The notes under the pieces are model-generated. The model searched no databases. It was not told where the DNA came from and saw nothing but the letters and a program-made list of their open reading frames with translations. 43,480 nucleotides of DNA. Source: a virus. The stretch lies in IMG/VR virus record IMGVR_UViG_3300010403_000030, positions 1 to 43,480 of that record; one strand, written 5' to 3'. The translations under genes and the position numbers were made by a program. Numbering within the stretch: the stretch's first letter is position 1; every line of letters starts with the position of its first letter. This document shows positions 1 through 43,480 of this stretch, one piece after another.

Positions 1-2597
1 AGCACGTTCTCCGGGTTCTTGATCGCGCCCATGACTATCTCGCGCAGGGACTTGAGGTCTCCAGCCGGGATGTCCTTGACGATGGCATTCACGGCCGGGA
101 GCGCCTCGACGGCAGCCTCAGGCACGATGCCAATGTCGTGAGCCGCGCCCGCGAGCACGTCCTGAGCGGCCATCTTCTCGGCCGGGCCTGCGTCGCGAGT
201 CAGGCCCATGGCCTCGTGCAGGGCCTTGTTCTCGGCCTGGCCGAGGTCCGGCATCTTGAAGCCCCGAGACTTGAGCGTCTGCTCCACGAGGTCGATATCG
301 CCCTGGAAGGCGTCACGGAGCTCGCGGTACAGCTGCTCGGGCGCTCGCTGCAGCTTCGGCTCGCCGCCCATGGCAGCGCGGAAGGCCTTGCCCTCTGTGG
401 TCTGGTCGGTGGCGCCCTTGTACGGCCCCTCGGCCTGGGCGACGGCCTCGTCGAGTGCGCGAGCCACGCCCTGTCGGCGGGCCTCCGGCGCGGTCTCGAT
501 CTTGCGGACCGTGTACCCACCACCCGGCTCGCGCGTGTACCACAGATACCCGAGGTCGTTCCCGTTCTTGTCGAGCGCCACGACCATGTTGTCGTTGGGA
601 CCCATCGTCGCGCGCTTAGAGGCGCCGTTGAAGTTCACGTCCTCAACGATGCGAGCCACAGGCGAGGGCTTCTCGGTAGGAGTGTGATGGTACTCGGCCT
701 TAGCAGCCCATTCGGCCGGGAGTACATGCTCCTCCCCGATCTTTCCAAGGCCGCCAGCCAGCTTGTCCAGATCCGTCCCGGCAACTCTTGCCGCCTCAGC
801 TACTGCCTTCGGAACGTCTACGGAGATGATTCTTCCGCCCTCTCCGCCCATGTCTGCGTAGGTGCTAGCGATTGTCGGATTGGTAGTGAACCAGTTACCC
901 TGTAGCTCGGCCCGCTGAGGGTCGAGATGCGTCATCTCTTCCGCCGACCTAGCACCCTCGCCCCGGTACATGCGGACATGACCTTCTGGCACAGGAGAGG
1001 CGTCAACCTGATACTTGACCCCAAGAACGCTCTCGATCTCCTTGGTGGCGGCAGGAGCAGCAGCCTGCGGCTCTCCAGCCGTGTGCATGTCCGGCGCGTT
1101 CTGTGCGAAGATCTCGTCGATGGACGCCTTAGCCTCAGGCTGGGCCTCGAGCGTGCGGAGCTTCTCGTCGGCCCCCATGCCTCCGCCCACGCGCTTCGGC
1201 GTAACGGCTTCCTTTGCGGCAGGTGCAGCCGCCCGCTCAGCCATGGCCTTCTCGCCGGCCGCCGCGATGGTCGCGATGCGGGCTTCCTTAGCGGCAGCGG
1301 CAGCGTTGCGGGCCTGTCCGAACGCGCTCTTGACCGCGCCAGGGATCCCGAGCGTCATCGGGAGAGGAGCCATCCCAGCTATCGCCTCACCCGTGGCCCT
1401 GAACGCGTCTTCCGCCTGCTTCACGCGCTCGTCGTGGGGCATGCGGAGCAGGCCCTCGAGACCGGCGATCTGGTTGGCGCGAGTGGGCAGGGTGCCTCCG
1501 CCGATATCGCCACCGAGCTCAGGAGACGGAGCGGTCTCCTCAGGGGCGCCGGACGCGATCTCCTGCTTCAGTTGCTCGATGCGCTGGCGGATGCCTTCGT
1601 CTGAAAGCTCATGGGCAGACGCCGCAGTGCCGGCTTCCCCCATGGCCTGCCCGGCAACGCCCATGACCCCACCAAGCGGCGTGGCGTTGATGGCCTCACC
1701 GACAGCCCCGAGCACCTTGCCTCCGAACTCCTTGGCCCCAGACAGCGGATCGAGGCCCTGCCGGCGCTGTGACTCCTGGGGCGACTGCGGCATGAGCTCG
1801 CCAATGGCCCCAGGCAGGCGACCGACGCCTCCGGCCATGGTGTCGATGCCCGCGTCGGCCATCCGGCGCACGACGTTGCCGTCCTTGACGGGGGCCGGCG
1901 GCACGAGGAAGTCGGCCACGGGCTTGCCCACGGAGCCGAGAGACTTGAACGCGGAGCCGACGCTGTCGAAGAAGCCTCCGGCCTCTTGGGCCTTCGGCGC
2001 TTCCGGCTTCTTCTCGCCTGGCTGCGGCTCTGGCTTGGCCGCCTCGCGGCGGGCCTTGCCCTTCTGGAGCCAGTCCATCACCTCAGCGTCCTGAGACTCC
2101 TGGTAGTGTTTGGTGACAGCCTGCTCTGGGTTCACGCGCTGGCGCGGGCCAGGGGCGAACGACGCGGGGACGGGGTCGGCGGCCGGAGCGGCTGGCGCCT
2201 GCTGCTGCGGCTGCACGCGAGCCATCACGCTCGAGAGGTAGTTCCCGGCGTCGTACTGCACGCCTCTGGCGTTCGTGCCCTTCGGCAGGAACTTCCGCCA
2301 GTCGCCCTCGGGGCCGGCCTGCTTGATGGCGCGGTTGACGCCGCCCTCGCCCGCGTTCCAGGCCGCGATGATCTTCTCGTCGTCCTCGCCGTACTTCGAC
2401 CTCAGGCTCGCCAGATGCTTCTGGGCCAACGCAGTCTGGGCCTCGGCATTCCCCTTGATGCTGGGCTTGCCGCCGAGGCGATTGAGCGTGTCCGGCATGA
2501 ACTGGTACATGCCGATCTCACCGGACTTGCCAACCGCGTTGGGGTCGCCACCGCTCTCCTGCTGCGCGATGGCTGCGAGAAGTTCCTGATCTGTCAT
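1..2597 (-). CDS. Giant internal virion protein, N-terminal part (lytic transglycosylase + ADP-ribosyltransferase-like + GNAT-like)
   Basis: This is the first 865 codons of a frame that runs off base 1 and continues in frame from base 43480 if the molecule is circular (total 1638 residues). The N-terminus is a lytic transglycosylase (SLT) fold with candidate catalytic Glu14 in QQESGG, then GEIGMYQFMPDT and AAWNAGEGG. Such a domain locally opens peptidoglycan during DNA ejection, as in T7 gp16. After a Pro/Ala-rich stretch, residues about 540-610 look like a polyvalent-protein ADP-ribosyltransferase (MYRGEG with R545, then NWFTT at 568 and a Tyr-Ala segment). Residues about 650-735 look like a GNAT acetyltransferase (RRQGVA at 707-712). 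The start ATG overlaps the stop of the upstream core protein as TAATG. The SLT call is firm; the other two domains are recognised by motif only. Confidence 0.88.
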   Translation of the reverse strand, partial: MTDQELLAAIAQQESGGDPNAVGKSGEIGMYQFMPDTLNRLGGKPSIKGNAEAQTALAQKHLASLRSKYGEDDEKIIAAWNAGEGGVNRAIKQAGPEGDWRKFLPKGTNARGVQYDAGNYLSSVMARVQPQQQAPAAPAADPVPASFAPGPRQRVNPEQAVTKHYQESQDAEVMDWLQKGKARREAAKPEPQPGEKKPEAPKAQEAGGFFDSVGSAFKSLGSVGKPVADFLVPPAPVKDGNVVRRMADAGIDTMAGGVGRLPGAIGELMPQSPQESQRRQGLDPLSGAKEFGGKVLGAVGEAINATPLGGVMGVAGQAMGEAGTAASAHELSDEGIRQRIEQLKQEIASGAPEETAPSPELGGDIGGGTLPTRANQIAGLEGLLRMPHDERVKQAEDAFRATGEAIAGMAPLPMTLGIPGAVKSAFGQARNAAAAAKEARIATIAAAGEKAMAERAAAPAAKEAVTPKRVGGGMGADEKLRTLEAQPEAKASIDEIFAQNAPDMHTAGEPQAAAPAATKEIESVLGVKYQVDASPVPEGHVRMYRGEGARSAEEMTHLDPQRAELQGNWFTTNPTIASTYADMGGEGGRIISVDVPKAVAEAARVAGTDLDKLAGGLGKIGEEHVLPAEWAAKAEYHHTPTEKPSPVARIVEDVNFNGASKRATMGPNDNMVVALDKNGNDLGYLWYTREPGGGYTVRKIETAPEARRQGVARALDEAVAQAEGPYKGATDQTTEGKAFRAAMGGEPKLQRAPEQLYRELRDAFQGDIDLVEQTLKSRGFKMPDLGQAENKALHEAMGLTRDAGPAEKMAAQDVLAGAAHDIGIVPEAAVEALPAVNAIVKDIPAGDLKSLREIVMGAIKNPENV

Positions 2598-4678
2598 TAT
2601 CTTCCCTTCGGACCCATGGACGGGCCGCTGGAGCTAGAGCCACTGGACGGCTGCGCCATCCCCCTGCTCTGACCTGAGGTGCGTGCGAACTCCTCGATGG
2701 CTGTCTCGAGCTTCTGCAGGCGCATGAGCTCGCGGGCCTTGTTGAGGATCGTGCGGCGCTGGGCGTTGCCCTCCTGCCCAGGCGGAACGGCATCCAGCTG
2801 CTTCGTGAGGTCGGACTGCATCACGTCGATGGACTCGGCGGCGGCCTTGGGGTCTTTGGTGAGCGGGAGGCCCAGGAGCTTGCGCCGGGTCGTCACGTCG
2901 ACCTTCGCGGGCACGCCCACGCGCGCCTTGTGCAGATCGAGGTTCTCGTCGAGCACCTGCATCGCGCCCTTCGGGTAGCCGGCCTTGGCGTCCTCGTCGA
3001 TGAGGCGGAACATGCTCTCGACCGCCGCGTTCTCCGCCTGCTTGAGCGGCCCCTGCGCGAACGGACCCGTGACGCGAAGCGCCTCAGTCACACGACGCTT
3101 GGCGTCTGTGGCCTCCTGCCGCTTGCCGTAGTCCTGCTCCTCGTGCTTGGCCTTCGCGTTCAGCTTGTCGAGCAGCTGCGTGCCGATGTCGCCAGGCCCA
3201 CCGGCCGGGACGCGACCGTCGATGATCGCCTGCTTGAGATCGTCCAGGACGACCTTCGCCTCTTCTGGCGTGGTCGCCATGGCGGCATCGCGGTTGAGGC
3301 GCCCGATGGTGTTGGCGTCGCCGTAGCCTCCAGTCTGCGCGGTGCCTGAGCGCTGCACTGTCTCGAGGCGCGTGCGCCACAGGTCGAGATCCTTGCCCTT
3401 GATCAGGCCCTCTTCGGCGGCCTGGTCCAGCCACTCATGCGTGAGCGTCCCGTACTTGTCGGGGTTGCGAATCTTCATCTCGGCCATCGTGGTCGTGGCC
3501 TCAGAGAGCTCCTCGGTCATGCGCTTTGTCTCGAGGCGCTCCTGGTTCTTTCGCTCGCGCTCCATGGACAGGAGGTGCTCACCACGGGCCTCAACCTGAC
3601 GCTGGAGCTCCGCGCGCTTGGCCGGCGGGATGTGCTTGAGGTACGTGGAGCCGCCCTTCGGCCCCTCGCCGTTGTAGAGCGACTCCTGCTGCCTGTGCAG
3701 GGTCTCGGCGTAGGCCGTCGCTTCTCCAGGCGTGGCGAAGGCGCCGAGCATCTTGCCGGTGTCGTAGTACTGCTTGATGGCCTCTTCCGGCGACATCACG
3801 CGGCCATCGTCGGAGATCGTGGGCACGAGGACCTCGTGGCCGTTGTCGTCCTGGAAGCTCATGCTGCGGACCGTGGACTTCGTGCCGTCAGGGTTCTTCA
3901 CCACGGGCCGGTCCGCGAGGTTGATGTTGCCCTTCTTGAGCAGGCCAGCCGGTGCCGCGTCGGCCATGTAGATCGGCTTGTTGGCTTCGAGCTTGAAGAC
4001 GTTCGCCGCGTCCTGCACCACGAGCGGGTCGTCGGACGTGACGGCCCTGAGCACGCGGCTGGTGGCGCCGGCCTGGAGCGCAGCCTGGACCTTCTTGTCG
4101 GCCTGCTCGCGCGTGTAGTACCCGGCCGCTGCCCCCTTGGCGAAGTAGTCCTTCAGGTCCGCCATCTCCCGCGTCTCGGTCCCGTCGGTCGGGCCGGTGC
4201 GGCGAGACTGGAGCTCCGTGAAGTCGCGAACCACGGCGTCGCCCGTGACCTCGTACTGGTCGGCGTGGTTCTGGTGCTCGACCTTGTAGGCGTGGCGCTG
4301 GTACTCGATGAGCTTCGGCGCGAGCCGCTGCTCGAGGACTTTCGTGGCGCCCGGAGACAGACCCTTGAACCAGTCCTGCCGCTTCTGGTCGACGGTCTTC
4401 GAGAACTCGGCCTTCGCGTTGTAGCCGATGTCCGGCTTCGTGAACGTCTCATTCAGATCCTGCAGATCCCTGTCGGCCTGCATGAGCCGCTGGGTCGCGG
4501 TGGCCTCGTCGTCGATGGCCTGCCGCTTCTGCATCAGGTGCGTCAGGTTGTTGCCGAGGTTCTCGGTCGCCTGGCCCACCTGCGCCAGCTGCTTGATCGC
4601 CGGGTCAGCCGGGAGATCTGGCGTGGCCTGGGTCGCGATGCTGGTGGAGACGCCACCGTACGTCGGGAAGATCGGCAT
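2597..4678 (-). CDS. Internal core/virion protein (T7 gp15-like position)
   Basis: This 693-residue protein is mostly helical and rich in Gln, Ala and Lys. It lies between the gp14-like protein and the giant transglycosylase protein, the position of the T7 inner-core protein gp15. Residues about 248-335 form a distinct module (GNINLADRPVVKNPDG, then VLVPTISDDGR and a C-terminal LHRQQE). I recognise this from many phage internal or polyvalent proteins, but its function is unknown to me. The rest has coiled-coil character, and the C-terminus is a Ser/Gly-rich tail. The start is coupled to the upstream stop as TGATG. The role as a core or ejection protein is inferred from position and composition. 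Confidence 0.75.
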   Translation of the reverse strand: MPIFPTYGGVSTSIATQATPDLPADPAIKQLAQVGQATENLGNNLTHLMQKRQAIDDEATATQRLMQADRDLQDLNETFTKPDIGYNAKAEFSKTVDQKRQDWFKGLSPGATKVLEQRLAPKLIEYQRHAYKVEHQNHADQYEVTGDAVVRDFTELQSRRTGPTDGTETREMADLKDYFAKGAAAGYYTREQADKKVQAALQAGATSRVLRAVTSDDPLVVQDAANVFKLEANKPIYMADAAPAGLLKKGNINLADRPVVKNPDGTKSTVRSMSFQDDNGHEVLVPTISDDGRVMSPEEAIKQYYDTGKMLGAFATPGEATAYAETLHRQQESLYNGEGPKGGSTYLKHIPPAKRAELQRQVEARGEHLLSMERERKNQERLETKRMTEELSEATTTMAEMKIRNPDKYGTLTHEWLDQAAEEGLIKGKDLDLWRTRLETVQRSGTAQTGGYGDANTIGRLNRDAAMATTPEEAKVVLDDLKQAIIDGRVPAGGPGDIGTQLLDKLNAKAKHEEQDYGKRQEATDAKRRVTEALRVTGPFAQGPLKQAENAAVESMFRLIDEDAKAGYPKGAMQVLDENLDLHKARVGVPAKVDVTTRRKLLGLPLTKDPKAAAESIDVMQSDLTKQLDAVPPGQEGNAQRRTILNKARELMRLQKLETAIEEFARTSGQSRGMAQPSSGSSSSGPSMGPKGR

Positions 4679-5223
4679 CAGTACTCTCTCGCGTAGGTGT
4701 TACGTGATGGGACGATGCCGGGGCTGTCGACGTTGAGACCTCCGCCGGTCTGCGTGCCTGCGCCAGCGCCCTTCGTGCCGTAGCTGGTGGCCACCGAACT
4801 CGCGGAGCTCAGGAGGCTGATCCCCGCCTGGGTCTCCGGGCTGATGCGGTCGGCCTGGTACTTGGCGAAGTTCGACCGGGTCTTGGCCTCGGCCGCGCGC
4901 ACGTCGTATCCGTGCTGCACGTTCAGGGCTTGGAGCTCGGAGTCTTCGGCGAAGTTAAGCTCCTTGAGCAGTGAGCTCCCAGTTCCGGCCACCACGTTCG
5001 CCCCAGCCGCCCGAGCCCTGAAGCTATTCATGGCCGCCTCGTCAGCTTTGCGCTGGCGCTTGGCGGCCTCGCGGCCAGCCTCTTCCTGCACCGCCGCGTT
5101 GTGCTCCTCGATGATCGCGGTGTTGCGGAGGTTGTCCTGCTGCTGTTGGGCAGACGCGTACGCGGCGTAGGCGGAGACCGCCGCGCCGATGGCAGCGATT
5201 GCTAGTGTGGCGATTGTGGCCAT
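4678..5223 (-). CDS. Internal virion protein, T7 gp14-like
   Basis: A 181-residue protein with an N-terminal hydrophobic Ala-rich segment (residues about 4-24), then a long Gln/Ala/Glu-rich helix and the pattern ALNVQHGYDVRAAEAKTRSN near residues 100-120. This pattern is typical of short-tailed phage internal virion protein B, which is ejected early and placed in the outer membrane in T7. It precedes the gp15-like and gp16-like genes in the canonical order. The C-terminus is Gly/Thr-rich. The family call rests on pattern and gene order. Confidence 0.78.
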   Translation of the reverse strand: MATIATLAIAAIGAAVSAYAAYASAQQQQDNLRNTAIIEEHNAAVQEEAGREAAKRQRKADEAAMNSFRARAAGANVVAGTGSSLLKELNFAEDSELQALNVQHGYDVRAAEAKTRSNFAKYQADRISPETQAGISLLSSASSVATSYGTKGAGAGTQTGGGLNVDSPGIVPSRNTYAREY

Positions 5224-5229
5224 GGGTCT

Positions 5230-5355
5230 CTAGTTCTTCTCGCAGGGGCAAGTGGGCTGGTCCCACCGGCGCAGAGGGCACTCTTCGGGGCTGGGGTTCA
5301 CGCGGGCTGGCGGAGGCCCGACCTTTGAGTGATCGACGGCCTTCTCAAGCTTCAT
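5230..5355 (-). CDS. Small cysteine-containing protein, unknown
   Basis: A 41-codon frame starting with ATG inside the end of the acetyltransferase gene and ending 6 bases before the gp14-like start. The product has a basic, Pro-rich middle and three cysteines near the C-terminus (EEC and CPC), a possible metal site. It fills an otherwise empty gap and matches the tight packing of the late operon. No family recognised. Confidence 0.5.
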   Translation of the reverse strand: MKLEKAVDHSKVGPPPARVNPSPEECPLRRWDQPTCPCEKN

Positions 5356-5848
5356 GGTCGTGGGCGCCCGCGTTGATGTAGATGATCCCGTCCTGTCTCG
5401 ACGCAGCAGAGACATCATCGGGAAGGTCGTTGTACTGGAAGGCCATCGGCACCGTCTGGCAGGCGTGGAATCCTTCGGACTCGAGGATCGCGCGCATCGG
5501 CTTGTTGTCCGGCCACGTCATGCCGACGAACATCGCGCAGCCGACCTGTCGGCCGACCTGCATACGCTTCTGGATCAGCGCGCGGCCGATGCCCTGGCCT
5601 CTGTAGTCCGGGTCTACGGCGCTGTCTCGGAGGTACTGGATGAAGCTGCTGCCGGCCGGATGGTTGTCTACGGTGTATGAGCCGTAGCCGACGATGCGCT
5701 CACCATCTAGGTCTAGCGAGCAGACGATGGTCGGGTTCGCGTGGTACCAGAACTTCGGTCGAGCAGGCCAGGTGGGGTGGCACTTCTTCGTGAGCTCTCG
5801 AACCTTCGGCTCGTCAGCCGTCTCCATGTGCCTGTACAGGAGGTCCAT
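5345..5848 (-). CDS. GNAT-family N-acetyltransferase
   Basis: A 167-residue GNAT protein. The acetyl-CoA binding motif A is clear at about residues 89-105 (AVDPDYRGQGIGRAL, giving the R-x-x-G-x-G/A loop), followed by a C-terminal strand region with MAFQYND. The substrate is unknown. It sits between tail tubular protein B and the internal virion proteins, where T7-like phages carry a GNAT-fold internal protein (gp13), so it may be packaged. A GAAAGGACAC ribosome-binding region precedes the ATG. Confidence 0.85.
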   Translation of the reverse strand: MDLLYRHMETADEPKVRELTKKCHPTWPARPKFWYHANPTIVCSLDLDGERIVGYGSYTVDNHPAGSSFIQYLRDSAVDPDYRGQGIGRALIQKRMQVGRQVGCAMFVGMTWPDNKPMRAILESEGFHACQTVPMAFQYNDLPDDVSAASRQDGIIYINAGAHDHEA

Positions 5849-5860
5849 GTGTCCTTTCGG

Positions 5861-8542
5861 TTAGCTGTTGCCGTCGTCGTACTGCGCTGCGCGCGAGACA
5901 CCGAGGACCGTCATGCCGAATGGCTGGTCCTGGATGATCTCGACCTGGGCGAGCTCGTCCCACCCGAGGTGGGCCTCGCGGTGGAAGTCCAGAATCTCGT
6001 TGTTCTCGAGGAGCAGTCTCGGGACGCTCTCTCCGTTCACGGTCACGCCCTCGCCGTGGGAGCAGTAGAACTTCACGTAGACGGCCGAGTTCCGCTTCTT
6101 GCGGGCGTGGAGCGTGCCCTCCTGCGTCTGGGCCTCGAGTGGGAGGGTCTTGATCGTGGTCTTGTAGTGGAGCCCTACCTCGATCCGCACGGACTCGCGC
6201 GAGATGGTGATGGCCCCGGCCTCGACCGTGCCGACCTCGTACTTCGTGCGCTGGCGTTGGAAGGCGCCCATCTGGAACGCGCTCTTCTGGAAGGCCGACT
6301 GCGCCGTGAAGAGCACGTCCACGTCGCCGGCCTGGTCCAGGTGGCTGAGTCCAACGAGCGTGTCCGCGAGGACGGTGTCGTCGTAGACCAGTGCCGACTC
6401 GGTATTCAGCTGCCCGTCGAAGACCTCGATGTGGCGCTTGCCGTCGCGCTCGACCATGATCCAGATCTCGTCGCCGGTGCCGCACTTCGCGGGGATGACG
6501 CAGACCGACTTCACGAGGCCCGTGCTGGGCCATCCGTGCATCTGGAACTGGGTCCAGGCCACGACCTCCTGGTCGCGCTCGTACGTGGCCACCGCCATCC
6601 GGCCGTCGCCCAGGACCACCAGGACGTAAGAGTCAGGGCTCGAGCACCAGGCCATCTCTATGGCCCCGGTGCGGAACAGGTGCTCCGACAGGATCGCGAT
6701 GTCCGTGGCGTTGTACCCGCCCGAGGCGCCGGCCTTGTTGAAGTCGAACCCCATCTCACGGATCTGCCGCCTGCCGCGCTGGATGAAGAGCAGGGCATCA
6801 GCCGCACGCATAGCGTCCGGCTCAGGGTCGGAGCCCCACTCAGACTGCGGCTGCGTGCGCGGGGGGTCGTTCGCCGTGATGGTGCTGTCGTTGCCGCCAC
6901 GGATCGCGTATTCCGTGCCCGTGGATCCGACCAGCATGTCCTGCATCGACTTCACCCAGCGGATCACGTCTACCTGATTGGAGCCGTTGACGATGGGGAA
7001 CACGATGGCGTCGTCGTCGTTGGGGCCGATTCCGAAGTTCTCGAAGTCGCCCACGCGAGAGCCGTACATGATGAAGTTCTTGTAGAAGTAGAGCCGCTGC
7101 TCGAAGAAGTTCACCACGCCAGGGAAGCCCTGCGTCTCAGACCACGAGTCGGCCTCGAGCGTCCAGTTGCCGGCCACCACGACTGCCAGCGTGTCGGGGA
7201 TGACCTTGATGATCTTGGCCTTCGCGGCGGTGGAGGTCGTGACCTCGGTAATCTCGAAGATCCCGTCCAGGGCCTTGATGAACATCCCCACGTCGGTAGA
7301 CCGGAAGCCGGCCTGCGAGAGCGTCAGGTCCACGATGGAGTTGATGGGCTCCTTCGCACTGATCGTCAGGGCCGCGAACGGGGAGCCGTCCAGCGACCAC
7401 AGGCCCGAGGCCACCGGGTTCGTGTTCAGGAACGGCGAGATGATGTCGGCATGGACCTGGGTGGTGCTGTCCACGACCGTGATCACGGCCACTCCCCCGC
7501 GCGAAAGGATCTGGCGGTTCTCGTCGCCGTCCACAAAGGCCGCTACGTCAGTCGTGAACGAGACGTTCTGGCCGGTGGTCGCGCCTGGGGTCAGGGTCGC
7601 GAAGGGCTGGAGCGGCACCTCTTCGGTCGGTGGCGGAGAGAAGACGACTTCCTGCAGCGTCCACAGGCGGTCCGAGATTCGGATCAGCTTCTGCGGCGCG
7701 TGGTCAGGATGACAGATATACATCCAGTTCGCGGACTGGGCGAAGCGGAGGGACCGGAGCTCGTCCGGCTCGTAGGGAGTGGCGATCTCGAGCGGTGCAG
7801 ACAGGTGACCCGACACCGCGTCAAGCGACGTGTTCGAGAGCGGTACTGCCGAGGACCACCAGATCACAGCGATGCCCGACGAGGGGGCCACGAACGTCGC
7901 AGTGATGCTGCCAGCCGGGACGGTGCGGGCCGTGATCAGGCTGGCGTTCCCGGCCGAGGAGCCGGCGCCGAACTGTATGCTCGAGCCGCCGATCTGGAAC
8001 GTCACCACGTAGGTGTCGCCAGGTGTCAGACCCGAAAGCTGCTGACTGATCATCGCGAAGCCAGCTGCGCCAGTGTCGATGTGCGCCTGGCCGGTGGCCT
8101 GCGTGATCGTGGCGCCGTTGTCCTGCTGCAGCGTCCATCCGCTCAGGTCGGTCGTGAATTCGCCATTCGTGACGAGCTCAGCGCCGGAGGGCGTGCCGAG
8201 CAACTGCTCGCGGTTGCGGTAGAAGCGGATGTACCGCGCCCCGAACTCGAGGACGTAGGCCTCGCTCGGGCTGAACACGAACTTCACCAGCCGGGCGCTG
8301 TCGCCCTGCGAGGTCTGGAAGGCGCTGTTCTGGAAGGCTGAGGCCTGAAACGCGGAGCGCTCCTGCTCGGCCGCGATCCACCCGGTCCCGCCCCGGCGGC
8401 TCGCGCCGCCCGTGACCTTGATGACCGCGTTGATCAGCGTCTCGGCGCCGTTGGGGTACTTCTTGAAGTCCACCCGCGAGTAGAGGAATGGAGAGAGCTC
8501 CCCTCCCGTGAAGTTGGTCTGGTACGGGTGGGCCGAGGACAT
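5861..8542 (-). CDS. Tail tubular protein B (T7 gp12-like nozzle)
   Basis: An 893-residue protein beginning with the family signature NFTGGELSPFLYSRVDF, then GGASRRGGTGW. This is the start of the T7 gp12 / tail tubular B family that forms the tail nozzle. Two clusters of a five-residue repeat built on SAFQ occur, at about residues 65-80 and again near residue 760 (SAFQKSAFQMGAFQ). The start overlaps the stop of tail tubular A as TAATG. The large size and its position after tail tubular A support the call. Confidence 0.92.
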   Translation of the reverse strand: MSSAHPYQTNFTGGELSPFLYSRVDFKKYPNGAETLINAVIKVTGGASRRGGTGWIAAEQERSAFQASAFQNSAFQTSQGDSARLVKFVFSPSEAYVLEFGARYIRFYRNREQLLGTPSGAELVTNGEFTTDLSGWTLQQDNGATITQATGQAHIDTGAAGFAMISQQLSGLTPGDTYVVTFQIGGSSIQFGAGSSAGNASLITARTVPAGSITATFVAPSSGIAVIWWSSAVPLSNTSLDAVSGHLSAPLEIATPYEPDELRSLRFAQSANWMYICHPDHAPQKLIRISDRLWTLQEVVFSPPPTEEVPLQPFATLTPGATTGQNVSFTTDVAAFVDGDENRQILSRGGVAVITVVDSTTQVHADIISPFLNTNPVASGLWSLDGSPFAALTISAKEPINSIVDLTLSQAGFRSTDVGMFIKALDGIFEITEVTTSTAAKAKIIKVIPDTLAVVVAGNWTLEADSWSETQGFPGVVNFFEQRLYFYKNFIMYGSRVGDFENFGIGPNDDDAIVFPIVNGSNQVDVIRWVKSMQDMLVGSTGTEYAIRGGNDSTITANDPPRTQPQSEWGSDPEPDAMRAADALLFIQRGRRQIREMGFDFNKAGASGGYNATDIAILSEHLFRTGAIEMAWCSSPDSYVLVVLGDGRMAVATYERDQEVVAWTQFQMHGWPSTGLVKSVCVIPAKCGTGDEIWIMVERDGKRHIEVFDGQLNTESALVYDDTVLADTLVGLSHLDQAGDVDVLFTAQSAFQKSAFQMGAFQRQRTKYEVGTVEAGAITISRESVRIEVGLHYKTTIKTLPLEAQTQEGTLHARKKRNSAVYVKFYCSHGEGVTVNGESVPRLLLENNEILDFHREAHLGWDELAQVEIIQDQPFGMTVLGVSRAAQYDDGNS

Positions 8543-23754: not shown

Positions 23755-24330
23755 TTACCCGTTAGCCAGCGCGTCCAGCCGAGCCTCGAGGGCCACGGTC
23801 TTGTCCGCGTTCAGCTTGATCTCCGCCGACAGGCGGGCGATCTCGGTGGTGCTGGTGGTCTCCAGCGCAGCCACTCGGGCCGTGAGTGCGTCCACGTCCG
23901 CTCGCAGTGCGTCGGTTACGGCGGGGTCGGCATCCTGCCCGTCCTCACCGTCTACGCCGGCAGCCCCATCGGCACCAGCCGGACCCTGCTCACCCTGAGC
24001 TCCGGCCTCGCCTTGCGGCCCAGCCTCACCCTGGATGCCCTGCTCTCCCTGCGGGCCTGCAGGCCCCTCAGGACCGACTTCGCCCTGCGGACCCTGTTCG
24101 CCCTGGATGCCGGCCTCGCCTTGCGGCCCAGCCTCACCCTGGATGCCCTGCTCTCCCTGGGGACCCTGTTCGCCAGTGTCCCCCTTGTCGCCCTTCTCCC
24201 CGGTGTCGCCCTTGAGCACGCCCTTGACGGCGTTGCCCACGGCCTCGACCAGCGACGCTACCTGCTCCACCGGGACTCCGGTCTCGCAGCACTGCATCTC
24301 CATCTGGTCCTCATCGTTCCAACGGCTCAT
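23755..24330 (-). CDS. Collagen-like (Gly-X-Y) protein
   Basis: A 191-residue protein. A 45-residue N-terminal domain (with CC near residue 15) is followed by about 90 residues of uninterrupted Gly-X-Y triplets rich in Glu, Gln and Pro ([25 protein letters not shown]). The C-terminal part is a heptad coiled coil likely to trimerise the helix. Collagen-like shafts occur in phage fibres, so a virion fibre is the best guess. The ATG at 24330 is used because GAGG precedes it; a longer upstream frame lacks coding character. Confidence 0.85.
24002..24159 (-). repeat. 50-bp direct repeat inside the collagen-like gene
   Basis: Bases 24002-24051 and 24110-24159 are identical over 50 bases, offset by 108 bases (36 residues, 12 triplets). 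This indicates recent in-frame duplication of the Gly-X-Y block. Confidence 0.9.
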
Positions 24331-24549
24331 CGTGCTACCTCGCGTACTGCCAGTAAGCGGGCCGGCATGCGACGCCTGGCCCCACAGGCTTCGACTCCTG
24401 CCCGTGTTATCCCGGTCCACTACGGCGGCCGGGGATCCTTCAGAGAAAGGGCCGGCGGGGCTACTCCGTCGCCGGCACCCCCAGCCCGGTGAGGGGGCCT
24501 GTCGGCCCAGCCCAGGCGCGAGCGCACGCGTCCCGGTTAAGGGGGTATG
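24331..24549 (-). promoter_or_regulatory. Structured leader upstream of the collagen-like gene
   Basis: About 220 bases without a credible gene, very G+C-rich. On the minus strand it can form several stems, including a perfect 7-bp GCCGGCG / CGCCGGC stem and a CCCCC / GGGGG stem. The stretch between the intrinsic terminator and the start codon must supply initiation or readthrough for downstream genes, but no clear sigma70 promoter is visible. Confidence 0.4.
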
Positions 24550-24572
24550 AAAAACCTTCACAGTCAGTGAAG
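24550..24572 (-). terminator. Rho-independent terminator
   Basis: On the minus strand a 6-bp stem CTTCAC / GTGAAG with loop TGACT is followed by GTTTTTC. It lies about 100 bases after the putative small-terminase gene and would end or reduce that transcript. Confidence 0.75.
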
Positions 24573-24666
24573 CCCTCCCCACGCGCCCGACTCGAGCTAA
24601 CTTTTTGGGGGTGGGGGTGCCTCGACTTCCAGAATCGGGGCCGGGGGCCGAATGCTGCCGGCGCCC

Positions 24667-26466: not shown

Positions 26467-27213
26467 ATGTCTCTGCTCAGTATCTCAGCCGACGCTAAGA
26501 CCGTGAAAGGCGAAAAGCAAGGCTACCTCACGGGCATCCTGTACCTTGCGCCCCACACCATCGCGGGCATCGGCAACCTATGCCCGGATGCCAGCGAGGG
26601 ATGCAAGGCTGCCTGCCTCTACAGCGCAGGGCGCGGCGCATTCAACTCGGTACAGGCGGCCCGCATTGCCAAGACTAAGCGCTTCAAGGCAGACCGTGCG
26701 GGTTTCATGGCCGAGTTAGCCAAGGACATTGCGGCACTAGTACGCAAGGCGAAGCGTAGCGGTCTTGTCCCCGTGGTTCGTCTCAATGGCACGTCGGACT
26801 TGCCGTGGGAAAACATAGGCCCAGTGAACTATGACCGGGATGGTGGGCGATTCCAGGTAGCTAACATCATGGCCGCGTTTCCAGACGTGCAATTCTACGA
26901 TTACACCAAGTCTGCCCGCCGCGCTATCGCGCACGCGTTCGGCGACATGCCCGCCAACTATCATCTGACGTTTTCGCGCTCTGAGTGCAATGACAGGGAT
27001 GCTCTGAATGTCCTAGCTCGCGGTGGCAACGTCGCCGTGGTGTTCTCCACGCGCAAGGGTGACTGGCTGCCCGCCACGTGGCGCGGCCACGAGGTCATCA
27101 ATGGCGACGAGTCTGACCTACGCTTTCTCGATGCGCGTGGCGGATTCGTGGTCGGTCTCTATGCCAAAGGCAAGGCCCGCCGAGACCGCAGCGGTTTCGT
27201 GGTGGGGGTGTAG
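26467..27213 (+). CDS. Gp88-like phage protein with conserved cysteine cluster
   Basis: A 248-residue protein of the phage gene product 88 type. The hallmark is LCPDASEGCKAACLYSAGRG at residues 38-57 (Cys39, Cys46, Cys50), followed by SVQAARIAKT and VVRLNGTSDLPWE near 100-115, then a conserved FYDYTKSARRA. Cysteine spacing suggests a metal or Fe-S cluster. The biochemical function of the family is not established to my knowledge. GGGGAGG precedes the ATG. Confidence 0.8.
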   Translation: MSLLSISADAKTVKGEKQGYLTGILYLAPHTIAGIGNLCPDASEGCKAACLYSAGRGAFNSVQAARIAKTKRFKADRAGFMAELAKDIAALVRKAKRSGLVPVVRLNGTSDLPWENIGPVNYDRDGGRFQVANIMAAFPDVQFYDYTKSARRAIAHAFGDMPANYHLTFSRSECNDRDALNVLARGGNVAVVFSTRKGDWLPATWRGHEVINGDESDLRFLDARGGFVVGLYAKGKARRDRSGFVVGV

Positions 27214-36772: not shown

Positions 36773-37149
36773 ACGACTTCAAGATCAAGGACTCCGGCAA
36801 CCGCGAGGTCTTCGTGACTGGCATGCACCGCGACACTTCCGAGGGGAAGCTCGACTATACGTTGGTGTTCGACGGCCCGATGCTGGACCGCTACGCCGAG
36901 CACCTGACGAAGGGGGCCAAGAAGTACGCGGCCAGGAACTGGATGCTGGCCGCGACGCCAGAGGAGATGGAGCGGTTCAAGATCTCCGCCGCCCGCCACT
37001 TCCGACAGTGGATGCGGGGCGACACAGACGAGGATCACGCGGCGGCGGTGATCTTCAACCTGAACGGCTTCGAGTACGTGAAGGATAAGTTGTGCCGGCA
37101 GGCCGACAATCAGGCCGACGCCGAGCGCGCTGACCTAGCATGGCCTTGA
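36769..37149 (+). CDS. dATP/dGTP diphosphohydrolase-family protein
   Basis: A 126-residue protein with the family pattern TSEGKLDYTLVFDGPMLDRY, HLTKGAKKYAARNW and RHFRQWMRGDTDEDHAAAV. These all-alpha NTP pyrophosphohydrolases convert dNTPs to monophosphates, altering the dNTP pool. GTG start in a GTGA overlap. The integrase promoter begins inside its last codons. Confidence 0.8.
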   Translation: MNDFKIKDSGNREVFVTGMHRDTSEGKLDYTLVFDGPMLDRYAEHLTKGAKKYAARNWMLAATPEEMERFKISAARHFRQWMRGDTDEDHAAAVIFNLNGFEYVKDKLCRQADNQADAERADLAWP

Positions 37150-37174
37150 CACCTGGCACACAGGCTGGTAAGAT
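37146..37174 (+). promoter_or_regulatory. Integrase promoter (sigma70-like)
   Basis: TTGACA (37146-37151), a 17-base spacer and TAAGAT (37169-37174), 37 bases before the integrase ATG. The -35 begins at the stop of the preceding gene. It allows integrase expression apart from the early operon. Confidence 0.78.
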
Positions 37175-37211
37175 CGGTCGTGTTATGATCCCGACCCTCA
37201 GGGAGGACACG

Positions 37212-38102
37212 ATGCAGCTATCAGCCCTCAGCCGGCAGTACCTCCGTTTCTTCATGGCCCGTGGCGCCAGCCCGCGAAGTGCCGACTGCTACGACCTGAC
37301 GCACCGGCAGTTCATCGGGTATCTGCAGGCACAGGGCCTGACAGACGACATCCGGCACTTCACTGCGGAGAATGTCCAGGCATTCGCCGCATACCTTGCG
37401 GAGAATGGGCGCAAGGCGAGCAGCGTCAACGTCAAGCTCGCGGCCCTGCACTCGCTCGGAGAGTACGGGGTCAAGACCAAGGACGCCAAGGGCCGCTACC
37501 TCCTGGCCGAGAACCCGCTGCTCCGGGTGTACCGGCCGAAGCGGCAGCGCCCGCCCGAGAAGTACCTGAGCCGTGACGAGATCATGGCCCTGCTCGCCGA
37601 GCCGTGCCCAGCGCCAGTCAAGCTGGTGGTGGACATGCTGGTGGACACGGCGCTGCGGGCCTCCGAGCTCGCGACCGCGAACGTCGAAGCCTTACGGGCC
37701 GACGGCGAGCGCGTGATCCTCTCGGTCAAGGTCAAGGGCGGGCGGCACCAGGAGATCGTCCTCGGGGCCGAGGTCGCCGGCCGGCTGCTCGAGTCGCTGC
37801 GCTTCCGTGAGGCGAAGCCCACAGACCCGCTGCTCGTGAACGAGAAGGGCGACCGCTACACTCGCACGACCCTGAGCGAGGCGGTGCTGCGGCTGGCGAG
37901 GCGGGCTGGTATCACCCGGATCCTGGTTCGCGCCCACGTCCTGCGGCACTCGGTCGCGACCATGGCCTCGAGCCTCAAGGTAGACGTGCCCACCATCGCG
38001 GCCATGCTCAACCACTCAGACATCCACACCGCCCAGCGCTACGTCCACCGGCACGATGCCGTGGACGCGGCACGCGAGGCCATCAGGGAGGCGCTGCGAT
38101 GA
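37212..38102 (+). CDS. int: Tyrosine recombinase (integrase)
   Basis: A 296-residue protein with an N-terminal SAM-like core-binding domain (residues 1-85) and a catalytic domain. The residues are Arg149 (LRASEL), Lys175, His242-x-x-Arg245 (HVLRHS), His268 (MLNHSD) and Tyr277 (RYVH). The ATG at 37212 has GGGAGG upstream; longer frame extensions would cover the promoter. It lacks the arm-binding N-terminal domain of lambda Int, so it is XerC/D-like in size. It should insert the phage into the host chromosome. Confidence 0.93.
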   Translation: MQLSALSRQYLRFFMARGASPRSADCYDLTHRQFIGYLQAQGLTDDIRHFTAENVQAFAAYLAENGRKASSVNVKLAALHSLGEYGVKTKDAKGRYLLAENPLLRVYRPKRQRPPEKYLSRDEIMALLAEPCPAPVKLVVDMLVDTALRASELATANVEALRADGERVILSVKVKGGRHQEIVLGAEVAGRLLESLRFREAKPTDPLLVNEKGDRYTRTTLSEAVLRLARRAGITRILVRAHVLRHSVATMASSLKVDVPTIAAMLNHSDIHTAQRYVHRHDAVDAAREAIREALR

Positions 38103-40760: not shown

Positions 40761-41164
40761 TGCGTTGGTCCCCTCTCGTTGTATCTGTCGATGCTCTCCA
40801 GTGCGTGGAGGAACGCTGCGATGATATAGATGCCCTGATCCATCATGATGAAATACGGAGACCGCTCGACCCCGTCCGGGTAGTGCCCAGCCGTTATTGC
40901 TACTATGGCGCTGATCCCTGACAAGATGATGAGCACCTGCTGCGGGAACACGCTCAGCAGCCCGATCACGCTGCCAGGCTTCCACAGCAGTACGGCCGGC
41001 AGCAGCGCCGCCGTGATGTACATCATCCCCCGAAGGAAGTAGTGCCCAGGTCCTACAATCTCCAGCAGCGCTGACGTGGCAGTGATGTGAAGGGCGCCAC
41101 CATTGGCGATCAGCGTCAGCCCCCAGAGGATGTGCATCATGGAGACGAACAGGACTAACATCAC
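40757..41164 (-). CDS. Polytopic membrane protein
   Basis: A 135-residue protein with about four membrane segments (LVLFVSMMHILWGLTLIA, YFLRGMMYITAALLPAVLLW, VLIILSGISAIVAIT, GIYIIAAFLHALES). It follows the giant virion protein in a GTGA/TGATG overlap at its start. It may be a second holin-like or antiholin protein; no family is certain. Confidence 0.68.
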   Translation of the reverse strand: MMLVLFVSMMHILWGLTLIANGGALHITATSALLEIVGPGHYFLRGMMYITAALLPAVLLWKPGSVIGLLSVFPQQVLIILSGISAIVAITAGHYPDGVERSPYFIMMDQGIYIIAAFLHALESIDRYNERGPTQ

Positions 41165-43480
41165 CGACCCTGACCCGCGCTCTCCCGGACCATGTCCCGT
41201 ACCGGATCCTTCAGATCCTCGAGGCTCTTGGGGTACTTCAGCTGGTCACGGTCGGTCTTCCGCATCTGGACCGCGATGTCGAGCTTGGGGTACTCCTCGA
41301 GCAGCTGCATCTCAGCCTGATGCACGAAGCTGTCGAACTTGTTCTTGATCATGTCCACCTTGCCGGCGTCGCTCGCGTCCTGGTAGTCCTCATCGCTCTT
41401 GAGAGAGTTCATCGAGTCGTGTAGCGTGTTGCCCTCGTAGTCGGTGATCTCCTTCGCGAGGATCTGGCCCAGGCGGTGGCGCTCAGAGTCGGAGAGCTTG
41501 ATGCCCTCGCGGATCATCTTCTCCTTGCTGCCGGACAGGTTGAACGGGCTGGCCCCCTGCGACCCGCCGATCACGCGCGGCACCTCGAAGTCGATGCTCG
41601 CGCCGCCGAGGCGTACGGCCTCGTGCATGATCCAGCTGTCCGTGAGGGTGGATACCCGCCACGGAGCCACAAACCCGAGCCACTGGTTCTCGTTGGGGAT
41701 CGCTTCTCCCGTGAAGACGTTCGTGGCCGCAGGACGTGGCTTGTAGCCAGCGAGCTCAGACACGTCGTGCGAGCCCCAGCCGGGGATGTTCTGGCGGAGG
41801 ATGTTGACGAGCTTCTCCCACTCGCGCATCTCGGGGTTCTCGTTGTCGGCCACAGTCTTGCTGTCGAGCTTCTCGGGCGAGGTGGAGTTCTGGATGTAGC
41901 GCCACGTAGCCGCGCCAGGGATGGCGGATCCGACCTTGCGCGCAGCCCACACCGCAGCCGCGTCGCCGTTGCCTTCCTTCACGGTCCCGGTGATCGCGTC
42001 GCCCATGTCGATCACGCCCTGGAACCACTGCTTGCTGAGCGCGCTGCGAGCCAGCGCCAGAGCCCCGGCCGAGTAGTACGACTGGATGCTGTGGTCGTCC
42101 ATGTCCGGCGCCGCCTCGATGAACGTCGCCACCGTGCTGAGGATGGTGGACAGGGGCTCGAGGTTGTCGTACGAGCGGTACTTCCCGCCAATCCAGACAC
42201 TCTTCTCCATCCAGCCTGAGGCCGTCATCTTCTTCCTGAGCTCTGGGTCGGTCGGCCCCATGCCCGTGATGTAGCCGTTCATGGCGTAGTAGCCGGTCAG
42301 GCCCATGATCCCCAGGCCGGTCACCATCTTCGCGACCGCGAGGTTCGCCTTGGCGCCACCGGAGGCGATGTCAGACCAGGTCTGCTTGGCCAGGACGTTG
42401 AGCAGCGGTGTGTGGACGGTGCTGAACTCGGCGAGACGCACCGGGGTCCTGAAGAACGGTGTCACCAGGGCCTTCGCGATGGGCGTGTTGGCTGCCGTCT
42501 CGATGGCGCTGGCGGTGGTGCCAGGCGTGAAGGCCTTGGTGAAGGTGTTCTCGTGCGCGAACTCCTGCGCGCCCTTGAGCATCTTCGTGGTGGGCTCGTT
42601 CATGAGCTTGTCGAAGGCGGCCACTCGGTCGGCCCCGGACAGGTGAGCAGTGTTTCGGGTCGCGAGGGAGCGGAGCTCGCCCTGGAACGAGAGCACCTTG
42701 TAGAACTCGTCCACGCTGGACATCAGCTTCATGTTCTTCTCGGCCAGCGAGGACATCACGCCGATGATCCCGCCGACGGTGCCCTTCCCAGCCTCGAGCG
42801 AAGCCTGGATGGTCTCGAGCGCCTCGGCGTTCTTGGTCGCACCGAAGGTGGACTTGCCCGTGTCCCACGAATCCTTGGCGTAGCCGAAGGCGCCCTTCTT
42901 GGCACCGGCCCGAAAGCTGTCGGCCACGGTGTCGAAGATGCCGCTGACCATGGCCATGGTCTCGCCACCCTGGACCATCCCCTTGCCACCGCCCAAAGCC
43001 CGGAACGGCATCGACAGGATCTCGCCAGCGCCACGGTCTACTACCGCCATCGCCAGCGCGCCCGTGTTGCCGATCATGTTGCGAAGGTGCGTGAGCGGGG
43101 AGCCCAGCAGGTTGAGGCCGTAGTAGATGTTCCACAGCGCCTCGGGCCACTTGCTCGCGGCGTTGGCCAGCTTCGTGGCCGCAGCCTTGTCGGACAGATC
43201 CATGACCATGTCCACGAACTGGGCCGGCGTGACGTTGCCACGCTTCAGGAACTCAGCACGCGCAGCCTCGAGCTCCTTGGCGAAGGTGCCGAGTTCGAAC
43301 TTCGAGGCCTGGGTGATGTCGGTCTCGATGCCCAAGGCGTTCATGCCGCGAGCGTAGGCCGTCTTCAGGTTCTCGATCTGCTGGCTGAGCTTGCTGGTCA
43401 TGATGGCCTGGTCGATCACGGCCAGCTGACTCTCGGGCGTGGGGTTGAGCTTGGCGTGCGCGCCGAGCTCGATGGTCCGC
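41161..43480 (-). CDS. Giant internal virion protein, C-terminal part
   Basis: This is the C-terminal 772 codons of the protein that begins at base 2597, read across the joined ends (codon 866 spans the junction). An internal GTG at 43419 should not be taken as a start, because the frame stays open to base 43480. The region is largely helical with several hydrophobic stretches (WNIYYGLNLLGSPLTHLRN, GLGIMGLTGYYAMNGYITG), as expected for the part of T7 gp16 that forms the ejection channel across the inner membrane. It ends in a basic, Gln-rich tail and its stop overlaps the next gene. Confidence 0.82.
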   Translation of the reverse strand, partial: RTIELGAHAKLNPTPESQLAVIDQAIMTSKLSQQIENLKTAYARGMNALGIETDITQASKFELGTFAKELEAARAEFLKRGNVTPAQFVDMVMDLSDKAAATKLANAASKWPEALWNIYYGLNLLGSPLTHLRNMIGNTGALAMAVVDRGAGEILSMPFRALGGGKGMVQGGETMAMVSGIFDTVADSFRAGAKKGAFGYAKDSWDTGKSTFGATKNAEALETIQASLEAGKGTVGGIIGVMSSLAEKNMKLMSSVDEFYKVLSFQGELRSLATRNTAHLSGADRVAAFDKLMNEPTTKMLKGAQEFAHENTFTKAFTPGTTASAIETAANTPIAKALVTPFFRTPVRLAEFSTVHTPLLNVLAKQTWSDIASGGAKANLAVAKMVTGLGIMGLTGYYAMNGYITGMGPTDPELRKKMTASGWMEKSVWIGGKYRSYDNLEPLSTILSTVATFIEAAPDMDDHSIQSYYSAGALALARSALSKQWFQGVIDMGDAITGTVKEGNGDAAAVWAARKVGSAIPGAATWRYIQNSTSPEKLDSKTVADNENPEMREWEKLVNILRQNIPGWGSHDVSELAGYKPRPAATNVFTGEAIPNENQWLGFVAPWRVSTLTDSWIMHEAVRLGGASIDFEVPRVIGGSQGASPFNLSGSKEKMIREGIKLSDSERHRLGQILAKEITDYEGNTLHDSMNSLKSDEDYQDASDAGKVDMIKNKFDSFVHQAEMQLLEEYPKLDIAVQMRKTDRDQLKYPKSLEDLKDPVRDMVRESAGQGR

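Follow-up and report, generated by a model that had tools for sequence, protein, structure and literature searches.

We report that a 1638-aa DNA-ejection protein of the T7 gp16 type is probably, at the same time, a polyvalent virion protein of small size, with a cargo of enzymes that would act early on the host. Sequence comparison identifies its domains and their order: an SLT lytic transglycosylase domain, an Ala/Gly/Pro-rich linker, an ART-like domain, a GNAT-like domain, and a gp16-type core. The operon context and the core homology are established at the same level. In a narrower reading, the channel subunit would be an effector carrier: while the DNA enters and before any phage transcription, host targets would be modified by a GNAT and an ART of the R-W-E type, both tethered to the channel at the inner membrane. 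We think this reading less likely than not.

Reading frame and operon of the ejection protein

The window analysed here is an entire virus record of 43,480 bases, taken to be a circularly permuted genome. The first-pass annotation placed the protein at positions 1–2597, but the window edge is not the protein end: the reading frame stays open through the record ends into 43479..41161 (minus strand), with codon 866 spanning record positions 2, 1 and 43480, and the joined protein has 1638 aa. Because the record ends carry no terminal repeat, the join of the two gene pieces rests on the frame, the domain order, and the gene order. The two pieces match PHROG families as complementary halves of one protein kind. 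Specifically, the N-terminal piece matches PHROG 342, “internal virion protein with endolysin domain” (9.2e-13, residues 3–328), while the C-terminal piece matches PHROG 6651, “internal virion protein” (E = 1.8e-33), and the core also matches podoviral internal virion proteins in tblastn. The chain is laid out as follows.

3..2597, minus strand: N-terminal piece of the gp16-type ejection protein (865 aa, ATG start, open at the low record end)
2298..2591, minus strand: SLT lytic transglycosylase domain, residues 3–100 (Pfam SLT, PHROG)
1038..2297, minus strand: Ala/Gly/Pro-rich linker, residues ~101–520 (composition, hydropathy; the PHROG 342 match reaches residue 328)
678..1037, minus strand: ART-PolyVal-like domain, residues ~521–640 (hhalign with shuffles, column counts, AlphaFold model, PDB matches)
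363..662, minus strand: GNAT-like domain, residues ~646–745 (Pfam, profile with L181 and L140, Foldseek, profile against PDB)
1..350, minus strand: start of the gp16 core, residues ~750–866 (hhalign to relatives, weak before ~880)
41161..43480, minus strand: remaining gp16-type core, residues 867–1638 (PHROG 6651, tblastn, jackhmmer set, open frame at the join)

Direct phmmer of the whole protein against PDB sequences gave no match. The whole chain lacks cysteine, as would be favourable for a protein that unfolds and meets an oxidising periplasm.

Upstream, and in the same direction, come the genes for tail tube A and tail tube B, followed by one for a stand-alone GNAT and then by the gp14-like and gp15-like genes.

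5861..8542, minus strand: tail tube protein B (PHROG 376, 1.2e-131)
5345..5848, minus strand: stand-alone GNAT, flanked by the tail tube B and gp14-like genes (Pfam Acetyltransf_1, 1.1e-14)
4678..5223, minus strand: gp14-like internal virion protein (PHROG 418, 7.2e-5; Pfam T7_gp14, 0.036)
2597..4678, minus strand: 693-aa internal virion protein, gp15-like from its position (gene order)

The 693-aa gene has no significant family match in Pfam or PHROG. Very similar gene orders are found in pelagiphages HTVC035P and Baldr, in BcepC6B, and in phiV10, and HTVC035P has an annotated acetyltransferase at the place of the stand-alone GNAT. The virus is a podovirus and has its relatives in pelagiphage HTVC010P, the phiV10/epsilon15-like phages, and BcepC6B. 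Its genome encodes a primase/helicase and a tyrosine integrase (37140-38102, plus strand; Pfam, 2.6e-23), so the phage may be temperate. It also encodes a Gene product 88 family protein (26467-27213, plus strand; PF17338, 4.1e-51) and an ORF with collagen-like repeats, possibly a tail fibre (23755-24582, minus strand; Pfam, 7.8e-17). The proposed identity as a T7 gp16-type ejection protein is supported by the SLT domain, the PHROG 6651 core, and the order of the gp14-like and gp15-like genes.

The gp16-type core and its relatives

A jackhmmer search with window residues 971–1420 as the core query detected the core in contig L193 (3300044949_001504) and in 28 other ORFs, which come from related contigs, phages and prophages and mostly have 940–1100 residues. 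In hhalign, window residues 759–1599 align with the relatives' columns 103–980, that is, with nearly whole ORFs, the alignment being weak before residue ~880. Since the core aligns with nearly whole relatives, the ART-GNAT block is an additional module; it lies between the SLT part and the core, as had been proposed from the sequence.

The L193 ORF, of 2082 aa, joins a canonical ART-PolyVal domain to a homologous gp16 core. Among 30 loci with the core, an ART is clear in L193 only, and a second, fragmentary match lies in a core-adjacent ORF of L036. The L036 ORF, of 712 aa, directly precedes the one with the gp16 core (L036:14940-17075; ART-PolyVal-like match, 1.4e-6), a hint that one ejection protein can pass its cargo to another. 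This distribution bears on the idea that the enzymes act on phage parts. While still in the producing cell, they would modify the core itself, gp14 or gp15, or they would process packaged ejection proteins during assembly. That the block is encoded in the same structural gene run as its neighbours, with a separate GNAT gene three genes upstream, would fit such a role, but related phages assemble without the block, and we regard a phage target as improbable.

In a Desulfovibrio contig, a 2440-aa ORF downstream of tail tube B has an ART-PolyVal-like match (L120:5613-12932, 1.1e-5). In Baldr, the 2329-aa protein at the gp16 position (L008:15422-22411) matches nothing in Pfam (E ≤ 1) or in PHROG (E ≤ 0.01).

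Close relatives with the SLT-ART-GNAT block were not found by pattern scans of viral contigs, one of which re-found the L181 GNAT described below, nor among 398 genomes of one phylum. In phages and plasmids, tblastn with the block returned weak GNAT or chance matches only, and a MobF relaxase match in a Paraburkholderia plasmid was dropped as chance.

The transglycosylase, GNAT-like and ART-like domains

The SLT domain at residues 3–100 (Pfam E = 1.8e-19) retains its ESGG, GMYQFMP, and AWNAG motifs, confirming the lytic transglycosylase of the first-pass annotation. In the linker that follows, hydropathy indicates weakly hydrophobic patches at residues 296–314 and 404–422.

The GNAT-like domain matches Pfam Acetyltransf_7 below the curated cut-off: with the whole protein as query E is 5.6e-4, and with the segment alone it is 2.6e-5, just short of the cut-off. 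Its acetyl-CoA loop RRQGVA (residues 707–712; 462-479, minus strand) is complete and aligns to the Pfam Q/RxxGxG/A motif, in agreement with the GNAT-like block originally placed there. In a poor single-sequence model, in which the GNAT half has a pLDDT of 47–61, GNATs account for many of the best PDB matches, with probabilities up to 0.99 but E ≥ 0.0079 and low TM-scores. The nearest GNAT relatives found lie inside giant phage proteins, L181 and that of virus Rctr197k (L140). The embedded GNAT and these two relatives share a “T-x-D/E-G” tail motif and the acetyl-CoA loop, whose ARRQGV core is the same in all three. L181 carries InPase, LPD1, GNAT, LPD23, metallopeptidase, and ART-PolyVal domains; an arrangement with its ART directly before the GNAT was rejected, as the L181 ART lies ~500 residues downstream. 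The embedded GNAT is distinct from the stand-alone GNAT, and hhalign against a profile of stand-alone genes at the gp13 position gave no signal, leaving an origin as a duplicate of the neighbouring gene unsupported. We consider the predicted GNAT likelier to be catalytically active than inactive.

On sequence comparison, residues ~521–640 are a divergent ART-PolyVal-like domain. Pfam ART-PolyVal (PF18760) matches weakly, with E = 0.17 in the whole protein and 0.017 for the isolated segment, and its cut-off is missed (13–16 bits versus the curated 31.2). For a more sensitive comparison, we used a profile built from 102 ART-PolyVal domains taken from viral contigs. In hhalign, the ART segment matches this profile with a probability of 91.8% and a score of 40.7, while the best of 100 shuffles of the segment scores 23.9. 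Among tiled 140-aa segments of the 1638-aa protein, the sole other one above 18.2 is the overlapping 451–590. In addition, phmmer with the ART segment among 2516 ORFs gives ART-PolyVal domains as its best matches (e.g. L158, 1691–1747). The match is limited to the N-terminal half of the domain, from strand 1 to strand 3 (residues ~521–595), and the C-terminal strands, where the catalytic acid is expected, cannot be recognised confidently. It could be argued that the ART-like call is a chance resemblance and the GNAT alone is real, given a Pfam score far under the cut-off and a sequence match ~75 residues long. The margin over shuffles and non-overlapping segments speaks against this, as does the motif spacing YRG ... 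FTT.P..A..YA, which agrees with ART-PolyVal relatives, and we judge chance resemblance very improbable.

Structure prediction is consistent with the assignment. An AlphaFold2 model from 53 sequences has block-mean pLDDT values of 66–91 over residues ~531–600 and mostly below 60 in the last third, being confident for the first half of the ART only; as the alignment consists of ART domains, the model is a consistency check, not independent proof. Its leading PDB matches are nearly all members of the ART superfamily (Tpt1/KptA, ParT, PARPs, and bacterial ARTs), although all are weak, with no Foldseek E value under 0.058 and no VIA Z above 6.1. A single-sequence AlphaFold model of ART and GNAT together was unusable for the ART (pLDDT 39.5 overall).

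The landmark residues Y544-R545-G546, N568-W569-F570-T571-T572, and R707-R-Q-G-V-A712 are located where the first-pass annotation had put them. The ART positions compared with the catalytic signature of PF18760 are encoded as follows.

963-965, minus strand: codon of R545
891-893, minus strand: codon of W569
729-731, minus strand: codon of E623

The strand-1 catalytic column holds His in 99 of the 102 ART-PolyVal relatives and Arg in two; the window has R545. At the strand-2 column, where the relatives have Y (55), F (29), or W (11), W569 is an allowed residue. The strand-5 acid is ambiguous: in one alignment, E623 falls on the Asp that is invariant in GYDG. Of the C-terminal motifs, GYDG and QIKS are either lost or no longer recognisable. 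The domain thus departs from the canonical H-Y-D signature in having R545 for His and an uncertain acid position, for which E623 is the candidate. The ART-like block of the first-pass annotation stands as a remote homologue, recognisable in its N-terminal half only. As for the confident folds and intact active sites looked for, the GNAT cofactor loop was found intact and half of the ART fold was recovered, while the canonical ART triad was not. The chances that the predicted ART is catalytically active are about even.

Topology and comparison with known systems

From this architecture we infer virion packaging, ejection, cytoplasmic exposure, catalysis and a target as follows. The chain would be packaged in the head with the gp14-like and gp15-like proteins and would leave with the DNA. 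The N-terminal transglycosylase would open peptidoglycan, the C-terminal core would build the envelope channel, and, within the first minutes of infection, the ART-PolyVal-like domain and the GNAT would modify a host protein, either at the inner membrane or immediately inside it. In short-tailed phages, the DNA-ejection protein would then be a chassis for cargo enzymes, here in a small 43 kb phage with everything in one chain, and would give a testable system for asking on which side of the membrane enzymes borne by the ejectosome act, and whether they do so while the genome enters.

NAD+ and acetyl-CoA are cytoplasmic cofactors, and NAD+ and especially acetyl-CoA are expected to be scarce in the periplasm. 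The main difficulty for the cargo reading is topology, as the T7 segment after the transglycosylase is periplasmic: residues 1–228 of T7 gp16 are periplasmic, and the C-terminal part alone reaches the cytoplasm (PMC8954989). In the window protein, hydropathy indicates weak candidate membrane segments only, on both sides of the ART-GNAT block.

The T7 topology would also suit ART-like and GNAT-like blocks that are catalytically dead or decayed and serve in the periplasmic channel part as structural spacers or as binding domains for peptidoglycan, gp15, or DNA. The change of the ART catalytic His to Arg and the loss of the C-terminal ART motifs point the same way, and ejection proteins are mosaic and exchange domains (PMC8954989). 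However, the GNAT cofactor loop is fully intact, with its ARRQGV core identical in the two giant-protein relatives, Arg at the strand-1 position is the norm in R-S-E class ARTs (PMC5512222), and a canonical ART-PolyVal lies beside the same core in L193. We consider such inactive blocks rather unlikely and favour a cargo-bearing ejection protein.

Phage polyvalent proteins combine lysozyme, ART and GNAT domains, and the prediction is that they are packaged and injected; in one of the GNAT families, the domain typically adjoins an ART (Iyer et al. 2017, PMC5512222). The idea that such virion-borne polyproteins act before phage gene expression was published there, and the same group's survey extends it to NAD+/ADP-ribose enzymes packaged in virions (PMC9503650). 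Like those proteins, with their Tox-ART-HYD2/ART-PolyVal and GNAT families, the window protein is a large, putatively virion-associated chain with a peptidoglycan hydrolase and neighbouring ART and GNAT. It likewise carries several effector domains, SLT, ART-like and GNAT, beside a structural core, from which the virion association follows by inference. Unlike them, it has its cargo fused to a T7 gp16-like core, and its ART is shortened, with Arg for the strand-1 His. Pfam gave no LPD linker family at E ≤ 1, and LPD domains are not obligatory in polyvalent proteins.

T7 gp16 (internal virion protein D of the DNA ejectosome) resembles the window protein in its N-terminal SLT, C-terminal ejection core, and gene order gp14-gp15-gp16, but differs in that here an ART-GNAT block lies between SLT and core, and the core likeness is demonstrated for PHROG 6651 rather than for T7 itself. 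Caulobacter phage Jess A (gp39/gp40) and Podoviridae ctEw122 (MW202640) also have an ART-PolyVal at the gp16 gene position of a podoviral operon. In contrast to the window, both have LPD22, a canonical ART, no detected GNAT, and cores without sequence similarity to the window core. In neither is an SLT part of the same chain, and Jess A encodes it in the adjacent, preceding ORF. L193 shares the fusion of ART-PolyVal to a homologous gp16 core in one ORF, but its ART is of the canonical YHG type, and neither SLT nor GNAT was detected in that ORF. Phage T4 Alt is a virion-packaged ART injected with the DNA (PMC5512222, PMC9503650), as is predicted here, but it belongs to the R-S-E class and is a separate protein, not an ejection channel subunit. 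Our literature search found no paper on a single-chain SLT-ART-GNAT-gp16 core architecture, which does not prove that none exists. What is new here, next to an already established concept of enzyme delivery, is this single-chain architecture together with a non-canonical ART.
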